Below, piece after piece: positions 4,259 to 36,893 of a stretch of DNA of 59,602 nt; the first letter of the stretch is position 1, and the number at the start of each line of letters is the position of its first letter. The DNA is taken from positions 1-59,602 of the forward strand of contig JAFGER010000001.1 in NCBI GenBank assembly GCA_016931495.1. Reading direction: 5' to 3'. A program made the translations under genes and the position numbers. The notes below the pieces were generated by a model. The model was not told where the DNA came from, made no database searches, and saw only the letters and a list, made by a program, of their open reading frames with translations. The DNA is from Chlorobiaceae bacterium. Lineage in GTDB: Bacteria > Bacteroidota > Chlorobiia > Chlorobiales > Chlorobiaceae.

Positions 4259-4915
4259 ATGCCACTCTTCGACGGTTATGGCGTTCTTGCCGGATCGCTG
4301 CTCCGGTACGGTTGCGACAACCGGCAGGACGAAACGCACTACTACCACTGCTCGCTTCTGGTTCGCGCACGAGGAGGCCGCGGAGGCGTCTATCGCTGCG
4401 TCGTCGATCTCGACAGCAAGCAGCGGCGTGACGGCATCCAGTGGAAGGTGGTGAAATTGCCGCAGGATCGCGCGGCGGCGTTGCGCGAGCGCCCGGACGG
4501 GTGGCATGAAATCGGAATGGATGAACATTCCGGAGCGCTCGATTACTACCGGAGCGGGTGGCTCGGCCCGTCGGCGGAGTGCGTCCGCGCGGGCCGGGAG
4601 GCGGGTGCGGGCAGGTATTGCTGGAAGTACGGTACCGGGCACGATGCTTTCCGCGACCTCGAACCGCTGCTGCGGCGAGGGCGGAGAATTTTCGTGTTTG
4701 GCGAGCCGTTCCGTAACGGCAGGGGCGTGCACAATATCCACCAGAACCAGGGCGACCCGCCCGGCAGCCGCTGGGCGGCGGAAAATGGCCCCTGGCAGGA
4801 CGGGGCGGTGATGGTGGAGCGCCCCGACGGCAGCGTGGCGGCCTTTCTGTGCAAGTTCAGCACCCAGCGCTTCTGCATCGGCGAGCCTGCCGTGACGGAA
4901 TCGTGCAAAACATAA
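4259..4915 (+). CDS. DUF2278 (YukJ-like) protein
   Basis: This 218-residue protein resembles the DUF2278 family (Bacillus YukJ). The N-terminal half carries the YGVL..S..RYGCDN..THYYH stretch, and the C-terminal half carries [17 protein letters not shown], the strongly conserved NIHxNQG signature. No signal peptide or membrane segment is seen. The biochemical function of the family is not known to me. The gene is divergent from tkt across about 160 bp and is followed after about 155 bp by the SIMPL gene. Confidence 0.75.
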
Positions 4916-5070
4916 GGAGCGCTTTGGGCTTTGCCGGTGTGGCGCTGTTCTTTTCTGCGATGCTGGCGGGTGTTTTCTCAGCGCAGCCACGGGGGAGGCC
5001 AGCAGGATGTTCGGGATCAAAATCGGCGAAAAACTGTTGACTGCATTATCACCGTAAACAAGGAGTTTCC

Positions 5071-5805
5071 ATGAGATCGCTTTCTGATTCGATAAGGCTT
5101 GTTCTGCTTTCGCTGGCGTTGCTGTGCGGCAGCCTGTTGCCCGCTTTGCTTCATGCGGAGGTTCCTGCCATTTCGGTGGCGGCATCGGCCAGCGTGCGGT
5201 ACGAGCCTGATACCGCCGAGTTCACCACATCGCTCTCCGCGACCGAAAACGATGCGTCGAAGGCCGCCGCGAAGGTTGCCCGGCTCTGGAGCGGCTTGCA
5301 GCAGTCGTTGCGCGCCGCCGGTATTGCCGCGCAGGACGCCTCGTCGATCAGCTATTCGGTGAATCCCGAGTGGGAGTGGAACCGCGCGACCGGGAGCAGG
5401 AGCCTGAAGGGCTACACGGCGCGGCACACCGTCCGGGTGGTGGTGCGTGATTTGCGCAAGCTCGGCGCGGCCATCGACGTGGCGGCAGGCGCTGGCGCGG
5501 GCAGCATCGAGGGGCTGCGCTATACTTCCTCCCGCTTCGAGCACTTCCGCGCCGAAGCGCTGGCCGATGCCGTCAGGAGCGCCCGGCAGGACGCCGAGGT
5601 GATGGCCAGAGCTGCCGGCGGGCGGCTCGGCACGCTGCTCTCGCTCGACTACGGCCAGCCGCAGCCGGACTATCCGGTGATGCGCGCAGTCATGGCCGCT
5701 GCCCCTGAGGCCGCCGCGCCTGTCACCGAGCTTGAGCCTGCCGGGCAGAAGCTGACGGTTTCAGTGAATTCGCGCTGGCAGTTTGTATCCGGAAAAGGGA
5801 AGTGA
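5071..5805 (+). CDS. SIMPL-domain (DUF541) periplasmic protein
   Basis: The protein has 244 residues with a signal peptide (charged MRSLSDSIR, a hydrophobic core to about residue 24, then HAEVPAIS). The mature part shows the SIMPL pattern: [22 protein letters not shown] at the start, alternating strands, [10 protein letters not shown] in the middle and a C-terminal [11 protein letters not shown]. The family includes periplasmic proteins of uncertain role linked to stress and envelope functions. AAGGAG lies a few bases before the ATG and supports the start. It leads a plus-strand run of envelope genes. Confidence 0.82.
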
Positions 5806-29016: not shown

Positions 29017-29312
29017 GTTTTGCTGTTCGCTTTACCCCTGAAGCGGAGGATGATCTTGTCCGCCTCTACTCTTTTCTTTTGCATGAAGATATGATCGCAG
29101 CTGAACAGGCTTTGGGCTCATTGAAAAAGGCGGTTTACCTGTTACGAGAGTTTCCGTTCACTTGCCGGAAAGCGCTACCCGACAATCCATTTCAGCGCGA
29201 ACTTCTGGTTCCGTTTGGTCAATCGGGGTACGTTGCGCTGTTCGAGATCGACGGCCCAGATAGCGTGACGATTCTCGCTGTCAGGCATCAGCGCGAGGAT
29301 GATTATTATTGA
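29013..29312 (+). CDS. ParE/RelE-family toxin
   Basis: The 99-residue protein shows the ParE pattern: MSFAVRFTPEAEDDLVRLYSF, a middle KAVYLLREFPFTCRK, and the C-terminal strand SVTILAVRHQREDDYY. ParE proteins poison gyrase and RelE proteins cut mRNA; sequence alone does not decide. Its stop overlaps the convergent menH stop by 7 bp, so each gene's mRNA end is antisense to the other. Confidence 0.8.
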   Translation: MSFAVRFTPEAEDDLVRLYSFLLHEDMIAAEQALGSLKKAVYLLREFPFTCRKALPDNPFQRELLVPFGQSGYVALFEIDGPDSVTILAVRHQREDDYY

Positions 29313-30112
29313 GCGATGAAATCCTCCACGCTTGCGAGGAATCGCTCCGGCTCTTCGATGTGCAGCGTGTGGCCGCACTGCTCGAAAAGTTCAAGGCTCG
29401 ATTGCGGGCACAGCTCCGCCATTTGCTTGCCGATCTGTACGTACTTCGCATCCTTTTCGCCGACGCAGAGGAGCATCGGAACGCGGCATTCCGGCAGCTC
29501 CTCCCAGAACGATGGCTGGTTGCCCGTTCCGAGCAGGCGTAACGCGCAGGCGAGATTTTGCCGGGAGCCTTGCTTGCGTTGCGCTTCGACCTCGTGGAAA
29601 AGCGCATGGCTTTTGAGCGTCGCGAAAAGCGGCTGATCGTACCAGAACTCGATGAAGCCCTCGAAGTTCCGCTCGATCTTGCGCGCGATTCCTTCGTCGC
29701 TCTTCCGCCGCGCCGCTCGCTCCTCCTCCGTCCGCAAACCCGGCGACGACGACACGATCACCGCCTTCGAGAAGAGCTGCGGATAGCGCAACGCAAGCGC
29801 CAGCCCGATCCGCCCTCCCATCGAATAGCCCACCAGCACGCACGGCCCGGCGCTCAAACGCCGAATCTCGTAAGCCAGCGCTTCGACTGTTTGCACGAAA
29901 AAAAGCTCCGCATCGCCATCCGCCGGAATCGCCGCCTCGCCATGCCCCGGCAGATCGACAAGAATGCTGCAAAAGCGCCCGTCCAGCTTCCGCGCGAACG
30001 GCAGCCAGTCGCTTCCCGATCCGAGGAATCCGTGCAGGAACACGATCTTCGGAAGTGCTGGATCGCCGACGGTGGTGATGTGGAGGGGGATGTATGATGA
30101 TGGCGATGTCAT
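29306..30112 (-). CDS. menH: SHCHC synthase-like alpha/beta-hydrolase
   Basis: The 268-residue alpha/beta-hydrolase is best read as MenH, which releases pyruvate from SEPHCHC in menaquinone synthesis. It has IVFLHGFLGSGSDW near residue 22, LVDLPGHGEA, the nucleophile elbow LVGYSMGGRIGLALA near 103, and CGHTLHIEEPERF with the catalytic His. The start MTSPSSYIPLHITT is chosen because the upstream frame overlaps hsdM. It lies 47 bp after hsdM and may be read from the restriction operon. Confidence 0.85.
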   Translation of the reverse strand: MTSPSSYIPLHITTVGDPALPKIVFLHGFLGSGSDWLPFARKLDGRFCSILVDLPGHGEAAIPADGDAELFFVQTVEALAYEIRRLSAGPCVLVGYSMGGRIGLALALRYPQLFSKAVIVSSSPGLRTEEERAARRKSDEGIARKIERNFEGFIEFWYDQPLFATLKSHALFHEVEAQRKQGSRQNLACALRLLGTGNQPSFWEELPECRVPMLLCVGEKDAKYVQIGKQMAELCPQSSLELFEQCGHTLHIEEPERFLASVEDFIAQ

Positions 30113-30159
30113 GAGCGAGTCGGTGTTGTGTTGTCGGTTATCGGTTTTTGCTTTGCCTG

Positions 30160-31653
30160 TTATTCCGCGCTTGCTCCCAAACTTGCGGCGATCTGGCGAA
30201 AGCTGTTCAGGCCGGCTTCGATATTTTCGATGATCTCCGCTGCCAGATCTTCGGGGTCGGGGAGGTTGTCGAGGTCGGAGAGGGATTTGTCTTTCAGCCA
30301 GAAGATGTCGAGGCTGGTTTTGTCTCGGGCGATGATGTCGCTGTAGCTGTATTTGCGCCACCGGCCTTCCGGATTCGTTTCGGCGTTCCAGCTCTCTTTT
30401 CGGTCGTGGCGGTTTTTGGGATTGTAGCACTCGATGAACTCACGAAGGTCTTCAAAGCGCAAGGGCTTTTTCTTGAGGGTGTGGTGGATGTTTGTCCGGT
30501 AGTCGTAGATCCAGACCTCTTTTGTCCACGGCTCTTTCTGGGCCGGGTGGTTGTCGAAAAAGAGGACGTTGGCCTTGACGCCGTTGGCGTAGAAGATGCC
30601 GGTTGGCAGCCGCAGAATGGTGTGCAGCTCCGTGGTTTCCATCAGCTTTTTCCGGACGGTTTCGCCCGCCCCGCCTTCAAAGAGCACGTTGTCGGGCACA
30701 ACGACTGCGGCGCGGCCTGTGGATTTCAGCATAGAGCGGATGTGCTGCACGAAGTTGACCTGCTTGTTGGAGGTCGTGGCCCAGAAGTCCTGGCGGTTGT
30801 AGGTGAGGTCGTCTTTCTCCTGTTCACCCTCCTCGTTGGTGAAGGTCATGCTGCTCTTTTTGCCGAAGGGGGGATTGGCGAGCACCATATCGACCGTTTG
30901 CGCCGGGGGAGCGATGAGGGCGTCGGTGGAGCTGACGGCGCTTTCGCCGTCGATTTCGCCGATGTTGTGCAGGAACATGTTCATCAGGCACATGCGGCGG
31001 GTGCTGGAGACGATTTCGTTGCCGCTGAAGGTGAGGTGCTTGAGGAAGAATTTCTGGTGTTTGTCGAGCGTGTAGTTCTCCTCGTTGGTCAAATAATCAT
31101 ACGCGGCGAGGAAGAAGCCGCCGGTTCCGCAGGCCGGGTCGGCAATGGTTTTGTGCGGTTCCGGGCGCATACAGGCAACCATTGCCTTGATGAGCGCGCG
31201 GGGGGTGAAGTACTGGCCCGCGCCGGATTTGGTGTCTTCGGCGTTCTTTTCGAGCAGCCCTTCGTAAATCGTGCCTTTGGTGTCGGCATCGAGCATGACC
31301 CAGTTGGTGTCGTTCACCATTGAAATCAGGCGTGAGAGCTTGGCCGGGTCCTGAATCTTGTTTTGGGATTTGGTGAAGATCTGGCCGAGCATCCCTTTCT
31401 TTTTGCCCAGCTCGCGCAACAGGGTCATGTAGTGGGCCTCCAGCGCCGCGCCTTTTGGGGTGCAGAGGCTCTTCCAGTTGTACTCTTCGGGAATACCGAC
31501 TTCACGGTTGTAGGGCGGCTTGCTGTACTCATCGGCCATTTTCAGGAAGATGAGGTAGGTCAACTGCTCAAGGTAGTCGCCATACCCGACCCCGTCGTCG
31601 CGCAGGGTGGTGCAGAAACTCCAGACTTTGGAAACAATGGTATCGGCGGTCAT
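30160..31653 (-). CDS. hsdM: type I restriction-modification methyltransferase subunit
   Basis: The 497-residue N6-adenine methyltransferase subunit has the HsdM N-terminal helical domain (LEQLTYLIFLKMADE), AGQYFTPRALIKAM, the SAM-binding DPACGTGGFFLAA near residue 170, and the catalytic ANPPFGKKS near 270. It methylates host sites and is the core of the restriction complex. It follows hsdS by 22 bp. The sequence looks complete, and base composition is nearer the host than that of hsdS. Confidence 0.96.
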   Translation of the reverse strand: MTADTIVSKVWSFCTTLRDDGVGYGDYLEQLTYLIFLKMADEYSKPPYNREVGIPEEYNWKSLCTPKGAALEAHYMTLLRELGKKKGMLGQIFTKSQNKIQDPAKLSRLISMVNDTNWVMLDADTKGTIYEGLLEKNAEDTKSGAGQYFTPRALIKAMVACMRPEPHKTIADPACGTGGFFLAAYDYLTNEENYTLDKHQKFFLKHLTFSGNEIVSSTRRMCLMNMFLHNIGEIDGESAVSSTDALIAPPAQTVDMVLANPPFGKKSSMTFTNEEGEQEKDDLTYNRQDFWATTSNKQVNFVQHIRSMLKSTGRAAVVVPDNVLFEGGAGETVRKKLMETTELHTILRLPTGIFYANGVKANVLFFDNHPAQKEPWTKEVWIYDYRTNIHHTLKKKPLRFEDLREFIECYNPKNRHDRKESWNAETNPEGRWRKYSYSDIIARDKTSLDIFWLKDKSLSDLDNLPDPEDLAAEIIENIEAGLNSFRQIAASLGASAE

Positions 31654-31675
31654 CGTATTGGCTCTCGTTTACGAG

Positions 31676-33217
31676 TTAGATTTTTTGTGATTTTTTCACG
31701 CCCCGGTCCTTTTTAGCCGTAGCCTCCGCCTTTTCTCTGGCGATGCGCTCCAGCAAAGCGGATGCCGGTTCGTCGTTCGAGTCTTGCGGCACCAACTGGC
31801 CGGAAAAGGCTTTTTTCAGAATGGATTGGCGAAGGGCTTCGGAGCGAGCAATATTGTCCTCAATATCTGACTCAAGCTTATCGATTACAGAAAAACGATC
31901 ATCAAGTAATGTGTTTATCTCTTTTTGCTCTGAGATTGAACACACCGGTATTATTAAATCTCGGCATATTTCAAGCGTTAAATTAAACTGGCCAGCAGTT
32001 GCTTTTGATTTTTTTATCATGGAGCGAACTACGCCTTCAGACAAGAGATAGTTAGATAAATAATTTCCTTCGATGATATTGGTTCGGTATCTCACTATAG
32101 CTTGGTTTATATTCCATTCTGGATGGGTGTTTGGAATTAGAGAAACCTTTCCAAGTGGAGGGCCAACTATATTCATTAAGATGTCACCCGGTTTGCACTT
32201 TGAACGATTTAAAAATCCGCTGTGAATAGATTTTGATACAAATGTTGGTTCAATTGAAAAATCTAGTTTGCCATTCGTTGTCAGATTATAAACCTTTATA
32301 AAAGGGATTTCGCCTTTGCCAGATAAAAGCTCATTTTTTTCTGGAGTGGTGCCTTTTGTGATGAAATCAGAAATATATAATGCTTTGACGAGTGCCCAGC
32401 CATCAGGTGTGTTTGATTTGTCTATGTTCTTTATTTGAACTTCAGGAAGATTTTTAGGCTTACTCGGTCTCTTCCCAATTTTCCCATCCTTTTCCCACTG
32501 CTCAACCGCAGCTTTCCACTCTTCGAGCTGCTGCTGGTAGCGGGCTTCGCGCTCGCGCTTGATGCGCTTTAGGAGTTGCTCTGCGGTTTCGAGCTTGTCG
32601 GCATTCTCTTTGCGCCACTGCTCGGTGAGCTTGCCTTCAAAGGCGTGCTTGAGCAGTGCCTGACGGTAAACCTTGAGCTGCTCACGCGCTTGCTTCAGGC
32701 TCTCGACGCCTTTGTCAAGTTCGGAGAAAAGTTCTTCGATTTTGGCAACGATGCGGTGTTGCTCGTTGAGGGGAGGAAGGCCAAATCTAACTTCTTCTAT
32801 GTATTGCTTGTTTATAGCAGAGAACGTTGTTCCTGTGCCATCTTTGGCTATTTCTCGTTCAATACTTCTTATCAAGTAAAGCAAGTAGCGAGAACTAATT
32901 CCTCCTAAAGCATGAAATGCTGCAAGACCTCGTCCAATACAGCATTTTTCTGGGGCAATATTTGTCGGCCCAACTGGGGCTCTGACGGACATAAGTACCG
33001 ACCCTTTTTGAGCTATTTTATTTGGCTTTGAGCAATATTTATCAATTCTCGGAAATAAAGCTTGGAATTCAGCTTTCCCTTGAAAAAAAGGCAATCCTTT
33101 GCCATTCTTATTGTATGTGCTTGATGGTGGTGATTGTCCCATTACAACATTGGCAATATGATTAAACCCACATTCTGACCAGCCAGAAGGTAGTTCTTTT
33201 TTATTGCTATTTGTCAT
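31676..33217 (-). CDS. hsdS: type I restriction-modification specificity subunit
   Basis: This 513-residue subunit sets the recognised DNA sequence. It has two target-recognition domains, near residues 10-150 and 260-430, separated by a coiled-coil spacer (KIEELFSELDKGVESLKQAR) and followed by a second conserved region ending in SILKKAFSGQLVPQDSNDEPA. The recognition domains are AT-rich, a sign of exchange. I prefer the ATG at 33217 (MTNSNKKELPSGW). The sequence just upstream is a remnant copy of the hsdR 3' end, so the ancestral order was hsdR followed directly by hsdS. Confidence 0.94.
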   Translation of the reverse strand: MTNSNKKELPSGWSECGFNHIANVVMGQSPPSSTYNKNGKGLPFFQGKAEFQALFPRIDKYCSKPNKIAQKGSVLMSVRAPVGPTNIAPEKCCIGRGLAAFHALGGISSRYLLYLIRSIEREIAKDGTGTTFSAINKQYIEEVRFGLPPLNEQHRIVAKIEELFSELDKGVESLKQAREQLKVYRQALLKHAFEGKLTEQWRKENADKLETAEQLLKRIKREREARYQQQLEEWKAAVEQWEKDGKIGKRPSKPKNLPEVQIKNIDKSNTPDGWALVKALYISDFITKGTTPEKNELLSGKGEIPFIKVYNLTTNGKLDFSIEPTFVSKSIHSGFLNRSKCKPGDILMNIVGPPLGKVSLIPNTHPEWNINQAIVRYRTNIIEGNYLSNYLLSEGVVRSMIKKSKATAGQFNLTLEICRDLIIPVCSISEQKEINTLLDDRFSVIDKLESDIEDNIARSEALRQSILKKAFSGQLVPQDSNDEPASALLERIAREKAEATAKKDRGVKKSQKI

Positions 33218-33222
33218 TATTA

Positions 33223-33258
33223 TCACGCAACTAACTCCTTATTCATTGCTTCAATCAA
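33223..33258. repeat. imperfect duplicate of the hsdR 3' end
   Basis: This 36-bp stretch matches 34065-34100 at 31 of 36 positions. On the minus strand it reads LIEAMNKELVA-stop, against LIEEMNEELVA-stop in hsdR. Its stop lies just before the hsdS ATG. Together with the hsdR copy it brackets the DUF559/palindrome block. Confidence 0.85.
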
Positions 33259-33274
33259 AATTCTCCTCGAACCC

Positions 33275-33450
33275 TTTTAATCCCCCTCGGTCCCCCTTTT
33301 TCAAAGGGGGAGGGTGGAAGATAGGGGTGCCATATTTCCCCCCTTAGAAAAAGGGGGGTAGGGGGGATTTTGGACACTGCGCCAACATTGAAACCCTCCA
33401 TTTCACATTCCCCCCTTTTGCGAAGGGGGGCCAGGGGGGATTCGGGGGAT
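33275..33450. repeat. C-rich palindromic repeat array, left
   Basis: Units such as AATCCCCCTCGG, CCCCCTTTTTCAAAGGGGG, CCCCCCTTAGAAAAAGGGGGG and GGGGGGCCAGGGGGGATT recur. The array starts with the CCCCC form and ends with the GGGGGG form, so its ends are inverted relative to each other. Its right part codes for the last 13 or so residues of the DUF559 protein. Confidence 0.8.
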
Positions 33451-33810
33451 TTCCAAACGCTCTCCCACTTTCGCATAAATATCCTCAACCACCGCCTCAG
33501 TCTCCAACAGCACTTGCCGGTTGTCGTAACGAAGCACAAGCAACCCCAATTCCGCCAATCTCTGATCCCGAACCTGGTCTTTCTCCCGATGTTCGGGTTC
33601 ATAATGTTGACTGCCGTCCAGTTCAATCACCAACGTTGCTTTTGCACAGTAGAAATCGACAATGTAGTCAAGAATCGGTTTCTGCCGGTTGAACTGCACG
33701 CCATGTATCTGCTTTCGACGCAGACGTGACCATAGATGCTGCTCCGCATCGGTCATTTCGCAGCGCAATCTTCGTGATGGCTCCTTGAGTTTTTTGTTGT
33801 ACGCTTCCAT
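33403..33810 (-). CDS. DUF559 endonuclease-like protein (Vsr/PD-(D/E)XK fold)
   Basis: The 135-residue protein belongs to the DUF559 family of PD-(D/E)xK-fold nucleases. It has MTDAEQHLWSRLRRKQIHG, FNRQKPILDYIVDFYCAKATL and LVIELDGSQHYEPEHREKD; the D...ELDGSQH catalytic core is intact. Then RDQRLAELGLLVLRYDNRQV. The last residues, PRIPPGPPSQKGG, are read from a C-rich palindrome rather than from an ordinary tail. The gene sits between hsdR and hsdS on the same strand, flanked by C-rich arrays on both sides. It may be an independent mobile nuclease rather than part of the restriction enzyme. Confidence 0.85.
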   Translation of the reverse strand: MEAYNKKLKEPSRRLRCEMTDAEQHLWSRLRRKQIHGVQFNRQKPILDYIVDFYCAKATLVIELDGSQHYEPEHREKDQVRDQRLAELGLLVLRYDNRQVLLETEAVVEDIYAKVGERLEIPRIPPGPPSQKGGM

Positions 33811-33844
33811 TATTCTCGTTTTTTCATTCTGCCTTCATAATCCA

Positions 33845-34056
33845 TGAATCCCCCTCGATCCCCCTTTTCCAAAGGGGGAGGGTAGAGGAAAGTGGCTACA
33901 TCCCCCCTTTTCCAAAGGGAGAGGACAGAGGAAAGTGGCTCCCCCCCCTTTTTCAAAGGGAGAGGGTAAGGATGGGCTACATTTCCCCTCTTAGAAAAAG
34001 TGAGAGGGTCGAAGCTCTATTCCCCCCTTAGAAAAAGGGGGGCCAGGGGGGATTCC
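33845..34056. repeat. C-rich palindromic repeat array, right
   Basis: It starts AATCCCCCTCGATCCCCC and ends AAGGGGGGCCAGGGGGGATT, giving inverted ends. Inside are degenerate units such as CCCCCCTTTTCCAAAGGGAG, and a repeated AGAGGAAAGTGGCT spacer. Units are irregular in spacing and length, so it is not a CRISPR. It ends 9 bp from the hsdR stop codon. Confidence 0.8.
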
Positions 34057-34064
34057 AAAAGGCC

Positions 34065-36893
34065 TCACGCTACTAACTCCTCGTTCATCTCTTCAATCAA
34101 TCGATCCATTTCTTCTCCAAAAAGTTGATACATTTTTCCCAAGCCGCCCTGCCGGTCAAAAGGAGCCATCTCCAGATCATCGCGCTCAAAGTGAAATGAG
34201 CTGATGATGTGGTCGCGGATTATCTGGAGCCAGTGCATCTGCTCCTCGTTGAACTTTTCGCCCGCACCCGCGTGGCGCTTGAGCATCCAGTTCTGGAAGT
34301 TACGGCGCACCGTGGCGTCATAGGTCGAAAGGCTTGTGTCGATTCCGCAAACCCGGCGAATCACCGACACCAGTGCGGTCAACTCGTTGATCGGGTGCTG
34401 ACCTTTGTACTCGTCAATTTGACTGAAGGCGTTCCACACCCTGAGCGGGGCGAGCGCGGGCCTGTCCGTCCGTAGCCTCTCCATCACCTCCCGAATCATG
34501 CCATACGTGACCTCGCGCCTGCGGTACGGCTGATCGTAAAAAATTGCCAGCGCGTCGATTTCGTCCTTGTGCTCGCGGATGTAGTCGGCAAACGCCTCGA
34601 TCAGCTTGTGAGCGTTCTCGATCGAATCCTTGCCCCACTCGGCGCGGATGACCTCATCCAGATTGTCGTGGTCGATCTTCTGCTCCTTCTCCCGTCTGAT
34701 GGAGTCCAGCAGCTCGATCAGTTCACCGTTCAACACATTGGCCGCCTGACGCACCAACTGCTCCTGCGCCTCCTGCCGTTTCTCGTCCCCCGGATCGCCG
34801 TCTGCCGGTTGGCCGGCCAGCTCCAGCGCCTTCGTTTCCACCTTGTCGGCATCGATGGCGTCGAACAGATTCCCGATGAACTGGCTCAGCTCCACCCCTT
34901 TCGCCGCCGTTTTGACCCGCTCTTGCTCATCGGCATCGAGCTGGTTGTTCAACCGCGCAAGGCGTCCGGCCAGCGAGCTGACGGTATCGGCATCGCTGGC
35001 CCCCATCATCACGCCCATCGCCAGGTCTTTCAGCGACAACGATGGTTTGGTGATGATCGGCTGGCTTGAAGTTTTGAGCGACCTTGTGACGCCGACGGCA
35101 TCGATAATCACATAGTGGGTCTTGGCGCTCCGTGCCGACGGCGTGACCTTTTGCAAGCCGTCAAAGTCGAGGGTTCGCGTGCCCCGGCCCTTCATCTGCT
35201 CGAAGTAGTTCCTGCTTTTGACGTCGCGCATAAAGAGCAGGCACTCCAGCGGACGAACGTCGGTTCCGGTGGAGATCATGTCCACCGTCACGGCGATTCT
35301 GGGGTTGTAGTCGTTGCGCAACTGCGAGAGGATCGATTTCGGGTCTTCGCCCGGCTGAATCAAATTTCCCTCTTTATTGCGACTGTCCTGCGCCGCCTTG
35401 TAGGTCACCTTTTTGCAGAAGGCGTTGCTCTCGCCGAACTCTTCGCGTACGGTCTGGATGATGTCGTCGGCGTGGCTGTCGGTTTTAGCGAAAATCAGGG
35501 TTTTGGGCACCTCTTCACGCCCCGGAAAGAGTTCCGGCAGGCAGTTTTTGAAGGCTCGGATGACCGTTCTGATCTGGCTCGGATTGACAATATCGCGGTC
35601 AAGCTGCGTCGATGAATACAGCTCGTCTTCGTCCTGCTCTTCCCAGCGCTTTTTGCGGGTTCTCTTCTCACGCCGTTCGATGAGCTGTTTGGCCTTGAGT
35701 TCCGCGCCTTGCCGGGTGATACGGGTATCGATGTAATAGATTTCGTTACCAACGTTCACGCCATCGGCCACAGCCTTTTCGTGCGTGTACTCGCTGACCA
35801 CGTTTTCATCGAAAAAGCCGAACGTGCGGCTATCCGGCGTGGCGGTCAGGCCGATCAGGTAGGCGTCGAAGTAGTCGAGCACCTGCTGCCAGACGTTGTA
35901 GATGGAGCGGTGGCACTCGTCGATAAAAATGAAGTCGAAGAACTCGATTGGCACCTTCGGGTTGTAGGCGACCGGCACAGGCTGCTTCGGGCGGGTGTGC
36001 TGCTCCCACGGATTGTTCTCTTCGAGCGCCTCGTCCAGCTCTTCGCCTTTGAGGATGGAGTACATGCGCTGAATGGTGCTGATGCAGACCTGAGCATCTT
36101 TCGGGACGCTCGCGTTCTTCAAGCGCTGCACCGCATAGAGTTCGGTGAACTTGCGGTTGTCGTCACTTGGCGTGAAGGCGAGCATCTCTTGCTCGGCCTG
36201 TTCGCCAAGGTTGCGGGTATCGACGAGGAACAGGATGCGCTTGCCTTTGGCGTGCTTCAGAATCCGGTACATGGCTGTGATTGCCGTGTAGGTCTTGCCC
36301 GCGCCGGTGGCCATCTGGATCAGCGCCTTTGGCCTGTCGGCCTTGAAGGAGGCTTCGAGATTGCTGATGGCCGTTTCCTGACAGTCACGCAAGCCCAGCT
36401 CTTTTGCCGGGAGCTTCTCGGGGTTGAGCGGCGGAATATGATGCAGGCGGGCGCGGAGGCTTTCGCCCTCTTCCAGCCACTCCTTGAGCGTTTCCGGGCG
36501 ATGGAAAGTGAAGACTTCCCGTGAGCGGGGTTTGGGATCGCGGCGGTCGGTGAAGCGGGTGATTTCGCCGGTGCTCTGGTAGAGGAATGGCAAGGGGGTG
36601 CTATTCGTGACCCACTTGAGCTTGGAATCCGCATAATCCTCGGTCTGCTCCTCGACCGTGGTAATGTTCTCGGCCTTGCTTTCGCGTTTGGCTTCGATGA
36701 CGCCGACCGGGTGCCTGCCGACGAACAGCACATAATCAGCCGGACCGCTGTAGGTCGGGTACTCTCTGACAGCCTGTCCGGGCCCGTCATTCAGATCGAG
36801 TTTCTTTTTTTCCTGGACGCGCCAACCCGAAGCCCTGAGCAAGGCGTCGATAGTATCGCGTGCTCTCTGTTCCGGATCTTGATTAGGGGTCAT
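34065..36893 (-). CDS. hsdR: type I restriction endonuclease/translocase subunit
   Basis: The 942-residue subunit cuts and translocates unmethylated DNA. An N-terminal nuclease domain shows ADYVLFVGRHPVGVIEAKRE (PD-(D/E)xK). The SF2 helicase has Walker A MATGAGKTYTAI near residue 196, FIFIDECHRSIYN (DEcH) and LIGLTATPDSRT, then motif VI MKGRGTRTLDFD. A C-terminal EcoEI-type domain follows and the protein ends IEEMNEELVA. It is first in hsdR-DUF559-hsdS-hsdM. The last 36 bp have a diverged duplicate before hsdS. Confidence 0.96.
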   Translation of the reverse strand: MTPNQDPEQRARDTIDALLRASGWRVQEKKKLDLNDGPGQAVREYPTYSGPADYVLFVGRHPVGVIEAKRESKAENITTVEEQTEDYADSKLKWVTNSTPLPFLYQSTGEITRFTDRRDPKPRSREVFTFHRPETLKEWLEEGESLRARLHHIPPLNPEKLPAKELGLRDCQETAISNLEASFKADRPKALIQMATGAGKTYTAITAMYRILKHAKGKRILFLVDTRNLGEQAEQEMLAFTPSDDNRKFTELYAVQRLKNASVPKDAQVCISTIQRMYSILKGEELDEALEENNPWEQHTRPKQPVPVAYNPKVPIEFFDFIFIDECHRSIYNVWQQVLDYFDAYLIGLTATPDSRTFGFFDENVVSEYTHEKAVADGVNVGNEIYYIDTRITRQGAELKAKQLIERREKRTRKKRWEEQDEDELYSSTQLDRDIVNPSQIRTVIRAFKNCLPELFPGREEVPKTLIFAKTDSHADDIIQTVREEFGESNAFCKKVTYKAAQDSRNKEGNLIQPGEDPKSILSQLRNDYNPRIAVTVDMISTGTDVRPLECLLFMRDVKSRNYFEQMKGRGTRTLDFDGLQKVTPSARSAKTHYVIIDAVGVTRSLKTSSQPIITKPSLSLKDLAMGVMMGASDADTVSSLAGRLARLNNQLDADEQERVKTAAKGVELSQFIGNLFDAIDADKVETKALELAGQPADGDPGDEKRQEAQEQLVRQAANVLNGELIELLDSIRREKEQKIDHDNLDEVIRAEWGKDSIENAHKLIEAFADYIREHKDEIDALAIFYDQPYRRREVTYGMIREVMERLRTDRPALAPLRVWNAFSQIDEYKGQHPINELTALVSVIRRVCGIDTSLSTYDATVRRNFQNWMLKRHAGAGEKFNEEQMHWLQIIRDHIISSFHFERDDLEMAPFDRQGGLGKMYQLFGEEMDRLIEEMNEELVA

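Follow-up and report, generated by a model that had tools for sequence, protein, structure and literature searches.

Genes for DUF559 nucleases and their flanking C-rich hairpins as a probable REPIN-like mobile element in bacteria

The locus described here raises the question of why a small DUF559 gene inside a restriction-modification operon is bracketed by C-rich hairpins, and whether gene and repeats belong to one element. The window, meaning the whole 59,602-nucleotide stretch of DNA that was analysed, corresponds to positions 1–59,602 (forward strand) of contig JAFGER010000001.1 from the Chlorobiaceae bacterium assembly GCA_016931495.1. Judged by its nearest loci, the genome groups with Chlorobium/Chlorobaculum. 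The minus strand of the window carries a host type I restriction-modification operon with hsdR (34065–36893), hsdS (31676–33226) and hsdM (30160–31653), and between hsdR and hsdS lies the DUF559 gene (33403–33810, minus strand; PF04480, 126.5 bits), which codes for a 135-residue protein predicted to be a Vsr-like PD-(D/E)XK nuclease. The original prediction placed the feature at 33275–34056; this encloses a real feature, although 34056 marks the end of the right-hand array and not the end of the gene.

Two arrays of tagged hairpins flank the gene, as had been claimed. The left array (33279–33443) holds three hairpin units, starting with AATCCCCCTCGG and finishing with GGCCAGGGGGGATT, and the right array (33847–34055) holds five, starting with AATCCCCCTCGA and again finishing with GGCCAGGGGGGATT; some of the units are degenerate. 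Each good unit consists of a CCCCC-TTT-loop-AAA-GGGGG hairpin with a one-sided tag AATCCCCCT.., and in the two units adjoining the gene the tags point towards it. The outer unit on the downstream side of the gene (33279–33310, plus strand) has the tag AATCCCCCTCGG followed by the hairpin CCCCCTTT..AAAGGGGG, and its inverted partner (33338–33371, minus strand) has the hairpin followed by the tag (GGGGGGATT), and together they make up a REPIN-like dimer. The third unit (33410–33443, minus strand; hairpin CCCCCCTTTTGCGAAGGGGGG with the inward tag GGCCAGGGGGGATT) doubles as coding sequence for approximately the last 13 residues of the DUF559 protein (RIPPGPPSQKGGM), in agreement with the original prediction. 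On the other side, immediately upstream of the gene start, are the inward tag AATCCCCCTCGA and hairpin CCCCCTTTTCCAAAGGGGG (33847–33880, plus strand), followed by three more, partly degenerate units to which no strand was assigned (33902–34008), spaced by about 42 nt (43, 41 and 42), and by an outermost hairpin with the tag GGCCAGGGGGGATT (34019–34055, minus strand). The last of these is an inverted match of 33279–33310 (88% over 32 nt), so that the two arrays do have inverted outer ends.

The abundance of hairpin units within the arrays was likewise upheld. The strict palindrome CCCCCTT-N(0-6)-AAGGGGG occurs five times in the window in comparison to none in 100 shuffles, and with loops of up to 8 nt the entire 2.25-Mb genome has only the five window copies; a degenerate second array elsewhere in the genome (L209) is missed by the strict pattern. 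The window arrays also fold better than shuffled DNA, with z = −3.7 for 33279–33371. No Rfam match was found for the hairpins, and their mirror-image layout is open in frame, which led us to reject a terminator or riboswitch.

Pfam matches of the window protein were limited to DUF559 and related PD-(D/E)XK models, with neither an HUH nor a catalytic-tyrosine domain. An alignment of 34 proteins showed ten invariant residues (E23, R42, Q43, D52, E63, D65, G66, H69, D78 and R94), indicating an active site under constraint. A structure model (pLDDT 90.5) gave fold matches to 3hrl (E 9e-7), to the catalytic domain of the homing endonuclease I-Bth0305I (3r3p; TM 0.69, E 2.8e-3) and to Vsr (1cw0; TM 0.59), and a sequence profile alone finds both 3hrl and 3r3p (the latter at E 1e-4). 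DUF559 is accordingly predicted by the model to be a single-domain PD-(D/E)XK nuclease with fold kinship to Vsr and I-Bth0305I, and it has the conserved acidic and histidine residues (E23, D52, E63, D65, H69, D78) expected of EDxHD/Vsr-like homing endonucleases. A Caulobacter DUF559-domain protein was previously found to provoke the SOS response in vivo (PMC12907096), which in the literature searched is the sole experimental hint of DNA damage by DUF559 proteins.

Gathering 80 relatives of the window protein by protein similarity showed that most have C-rich hairpins immediately upstream of the start codon, and again at the stop codon or beyond it. The Pro/Gly/Lys tails that had been attributed to other DUF559 proteins are indeed present and are hairpin-coded. 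For quantification, each upstream flank was scored for an inverted repeat with its downstream counterpart, and the scores were compared with those of geometry-matched control placements in the same DNA. At a score of at least 28, the first set gave 42 of 74 DUF559 loci in comparison to 4 of 625 control placements, and at a score of at least 32 an extended set covering many phyla gave 78 of 140 measurable loci in comparison to 0 of 566 controls. In the extended set, 80% of the upstream flanks and 78% of the downstream ones contained a C-rich hairpin (7% of control flanks). Three unbiased sets collected with the Pfam profile alone (score of at least 28) gave the same picture in the order of the Methylomicrobium genome G100 (29/44 vs 2/124 controls), in the order of the Ulvibacter genome G107 (11/16 vs 0/42) and in Chlorobia (9/14 vs 1/34). 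These same-locus controls rule out chance or base composition as the source of the hairpin flanks. DUF559 genes without clear inverted flanks form a minority of about 30–40%, depending on the set. The absence of any positional link had been named as grounds for refutation, and the link that was found is very strong. At the loci inspected the tags point to the gene, giving a canonical unit of hairpin-tag-DUF559-tag-hairpin with the hairpins outermost, of which the window copy is an enlarged version with extra hairpin units.

The hairpin motif varies by lineage. The CCCCCTTT motif is found in Chlorobia, many Gammaproteobacteria, Deltaproteobacteria and Chloroflexi, a CCCTCTCCC motif with the tag CCCTCACCC accompanies other gammaproteobacterial DUF559 genes, CCCCTCTC is found in Bacteroidetes, and Clostridia and Bifidobacterium have longer forms with an additional stem; the tags are C-runs, namely AATCCCCC, CCCTCACCC and lineage variants. 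The motif class was the same on both sides of the gene in 73 of 94 loci (18 expected). Mapped onto the DUF559 tree, it shows 22 changes, in comparison to 59.5 with shuffled labels (minimum 53); within one order there are 7, in comparison to 12.2 (minimum 9 of 500). Some paralogues in multi-DUF559 genomes carry differing motifs that are nevertheless matched between sides. Proteins of the CCCCCTTT type from four gammaproteobacterial genomes are 53–70% identical to the Chlorobia protein vs 41–58% to nearly all paralogues in the same genome. Judged from these comparisons, the pattern is that of a unit which would have moved between species together with its own ends.

Filled and empty versions of the same site were recovered in several hosts. 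The metG gene of G137 contains a 165-codon in-frame insert that has the hairpins as its exact ends and replaces about seven linker residues, and its close relative G157 has an empty linker in a MetG that is 93–96% identical. The same metG linker is filled in G147 and G155 and empty in the relatives G108 and G121. The inserts of G147 and G137 are 67% alike in comparison to 77–83% for their hosts, and no recent transfer between the two was seen. For the window genome (G000), the empty counterpart is G011, with an hsdR 86% identical to that of the window, hsdS directly after it and no element. Conserved sites with both an occupied and an empty allele, as expected of homing endonucleases, were thus found in metG (G137 vs G157; G147 vs G108 and G121) and in hsdR (G000 vs G011).

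Pfam searches located DUF559 within single open frames of metG, leuS, metH, hsdM, hsdS, hsdR, an N6/N4 methylase and a type ISP enzyme, with the leuS insert lying before the editing domain and the metH insert between the B12-binding domains. In L181, L182 and L195 (metG), L266 and L268 (leuS) and L272 (metH), a complete DUF559 domain lies in frame in an interdomain linker, and annotation pipelines probably call such MetG, LeuS and MetH proteins ordinary enzymes. Type I restriction-modification genes are unusually frequent hosts (hsdM in L186, L194 and L248; hsdS in L188, L157 and L137; hsdR in L192; and the window at 30160–36893), and several hsdM inserts share one linker just before a YxDIPxFCKxATL stretch.

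The sequences bordering the element differ from site to site. In the window and in Chlorobia relatives, 36 nt of the hsdR 3' end are duplicated beyond the element: the first copy (34065–34100, minus strand) encodes LIEEMNEELVA and the stop, and the second, diverged copy on the far side (33223–33258, minus strand; 86% identical) encodes LIEAMNKELVA and the stop. The second copy is absent at the empty site L228. The element of G001 is flanked by two copies, 97.2% identical, of a 282-bp part of an alpha/beta-hydrolase (menH-like) gene (L117:3627–3908 and 4891–5172). A menH-like alpha/beta-hydrolase gene also adjoins the restriction operon of the window (29306–30430). At L029 the flanking copies of the host-gene end differ mostly at synonymous sites. 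In L183 (G181) the element lies between two HsdM-like C-terminus copies of about 37 residues, which have many residue differences and no stop; this suggests, from the sequences, that the two copies may differ in origin and are not a simple target duplication. Direct repeats internal to the hairpin arrays were discarded from the tally of flank duplications. Duplication of the host 3' end as a universal feature was rejected, as it was confined to a minority (the window, L008, L009, L012, L029 and L183) and metG inserts have none. The fixed-length target-site duplication of integrase-type insertion sequences was not found either, the signatures being 36 nt at hsdR, 282 bp in G001 and a replacement of about seven codons without duplication at metG. 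Such variation argues against a fixed-duplication transposase and is compatible with break repair.

Hairpins also occur away from DUF559 genes. G125 has 11 scattered pairs of tagged hairpins with inward tags like those around the gene and spacers of 49–52 nt, most of them in unrelated flanks, and similar dimers or arrays were found in G088 (L129, L131), G001, G005 and G165. One of the gene-less G125 dimers (L255) has a hairpin interrupted by a short insertion that apparently arose secondarily. The 51-nt spacers of G125 were also considered as unique sequences captured in a CRISPR-like manner; this idea was dropped, since recognisable spacer sequence is common to several dimers and G165 has similar spacers, and the spacer is consequently read as part of the repeat. 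The dimers of G157 (L259–L262) were left out of the counts of independent dimers because each lies within a larger MITE that has ends of its own (CCTAAATCCGGCAGTTGGA/..TTTTTAGG) and a length of about 200 nt; this MITE holds an outward-tagged hairpin dimer and is present in four near-identical copies with unrelated flanks. Within the genus Chlorobium, five genomes have an array separating a conserved gene from a cobT-like gene, and 12 have none there; a strict DUF559 gene is present in four of the five. The array before the cobT-like gene (L207 in G009, L210 in G017) has expanded in some genomes to a long tandem series of hairpin units and comprises just a few in others.

Whether repeat abundance follows the presence of DUF559, as originally predicted, received a divided answer. 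At least two strict repeats were found in 5 of 11 Chlorobia genomes with a strict DUF559 gene vs 1 of 87 without (p = 4e-5), and in the gammaproteobacterial order that includes G100 the CCCTCACCC-CCCTCTCC motif was found in 21 of 28 DUF559-bearing genomes vs 15 of 53 without (p = 1e-4), but the AATCCCCC-CCCCCTT motif in the same order showed no significant difference (12/28 vs 15/53, p = 0.22). These counts take in gene-adjoining copies and the statistics ignore kinship, which makes co-occurrence weaker than the positional evidence. Repeat-rich genomes with no DUF559 match were also found (G165, G173, G179, G133 and G005), and standing copy number therefore needs no resident gene. Separating the counts by motif helps, but G165, G173, G179 and G133 are real counter-evidence to a strict dependence of the repeats on DUF559; their repeats could be relics after gene loss, copies from undetected relatives, or repeats moved otherwise.

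We consider it likely that the DUF559 gene and its hairpins constitute one mobile element, a new class resembling REP/REPIN systems and encoded by a PD-(D/E)XK nuclease of the Vsr/homing-endonuclease type. The proposal that DUF559 is the partner enzyme of the repeats is supported by the positional link across phyla, the side-matched motif, its tracking of the protein tree and the gene-less dimers. The hairpins might instead be independent, abundant repeats moved by another enzyme, with DUF559 hitchhiking or inserting into them as some insertion sequences do into REPs. The repeat-rich genomes lacking a DUF559 match, and the dimers that lie inside larger MITE-like repeats (L259–L262), would be in keeping with such an origin. 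Random insertion into pre-existing repeats, however, predicts neither matched pairs, gene-facing tags nor exact ends, and at DUF559 loci the left and right hairpins match and track the protein tree, paralogues of one genome carry different matched pairs, the tags point inwards at the loci examined and the metG insert ends exactly at the hairpins. An independent origin of the repeats is accordingly regarded as quite unlikely.

It appears unlikely, too, that DUF559 proteins are simply homing endonucleases cutting empty hsdR, hsdM, hsdS, metG and leuS alleles and spreading by allele conversion, with the hairpins as passive ends. The catalytic fold matches that of I-Bth0305I, insertion recurs at one metG linker (G137, G147, G155) and at one of hsdM, empty sister genomes exist for metG, and the mostly synonymous differences between the L029 copies would fit such conversion. 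Set against this, insertion sites are diverse overall, and gene-less dimers at many unrelated sites together with co-inheritance of hairpin and protein need hairpin-specific recognition. Alternatively, DUF559 proteins could serve the host as accessories, either in Vsr-like mismatch repair or as components of restriction systems, with the palindromes working as terminators or as regulatory hairpins. Such a host function would draw on the Vsr-like fold, the frequent location in restriction-modification operons and the VSP-repair role proposed for Caulobacter VsrA (PMC12907096). This seems highly improbable, as the hairpins are mirror-oriented on two sides and run in frame through DUF559 and into MetG and other proteins, unlike terminators, have no match in Rfam, and accompany DUF559 elements outside restriction loci as well.

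Under the single-element reading, the nuclease would recognise its own tagged hairpins and may cut them, would cut target DNA, and break repair would then copy the hairpin-bounded DNA into the break; DUF559 would also act in trans on gene-less copies. Copying by cut and repair would explain why inserts have no fixed target duplication (flank duplications of 36 nt and 282 nt, exchange of a few codons), why gene-less dimers, which would relate to DUF559 as REPINs do to RAYTs, have spacers of uniform length, and why inserts persist only where they do little harm, in intergenic positions, at gene ends and in frame in interdomain linkers. Insertion into linkers probably reflects selection, not targeting, and the repeated use of the metG and hsdM linkers leaves room for a homing-like choice of target.

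The parallel to REP-RAYT systems that had been drawn for this locus holds in layout and fails in membership. Both have short tagged palindromes, inverted pairs of the enzyme's own repeat family around its gene (78/140 DUF559 loci vs 0/566 controls), dispersed gene-less dimers (G125, G088), a lineage-specific motif tied to the enzyme lineage, and arrays, which here resemble BIMEs. RAYT (TnpA-REP) is a Y1 HUH transposase of the IS200/IS605 type, whereas the DUF559 fold matches are PD-(D/E)XK-class nucleases and no HUH enzyme is present; the REP tag is GTAG/CGTC, whereas the DUF559 tag is a C-run (AATCCCCC, CCCTCACCC); and, unlike REP-RAYT, DUF559 elements often lie in frame inside host proteins. 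Free-standing EDxHD/Vsr-like homing endonucleases (I-Bth0305I, 3r3p) share a related catalytic fold, occupied and empty alleles and recurrent gene positions. Unlike the I-Bth0305I class, DUF559 consists of the catalytic domain alone, has hairpin repeats at its borders, lies outside introns and splicing inteins and has gene-less derivatives. Rickettsia palindromic elements likewise lie in frame within coding genes (Ogata et al. 2000, 2002, as described in PMC10969869), and that review names no partner enzyme; in contrast to them, the DUF559 element encodes a nuclease and spans many phyla. A 2013 REP survey describes, in its conclusions, palindromes of various bacteria without GTAG/CGTC ends and leaves their partner proteins open (PMC3733652). 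The DUF559 repeats likewise lack such ends, and a candidate partner enzyme is now identified. No prior report of a link between DUF559 and repeats was found in the literature searched, the scope of which did not extend to preprints and most subscription journals.

In summary, we lean towards a new class of hairpin-ended element that has a Vsr/homing-type nuclease as its sole gene, enters genes in frame, including the essential metG and leuS, sheds gene-less dimers and may lie behind a large part of those C-rich palindromic repeats in bacterial genomes that are still unexplained. Bacterial genomes commonly harbour untagged palindromic repeats, for which a mobilising enzyme has so far been missing, and the function of the widespread DUF559 domain is unknown; the link supplies each with a testable partner. 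It also suggests another way to read the SOS response caused by the Caulobacter DUF559 protein, and it predicts the existence of a natural enzyme with specificity for a short DNA hairpin. For the hosts, it means that a selfish-looking nuclease can persist as an extra domain inside essential proteins.
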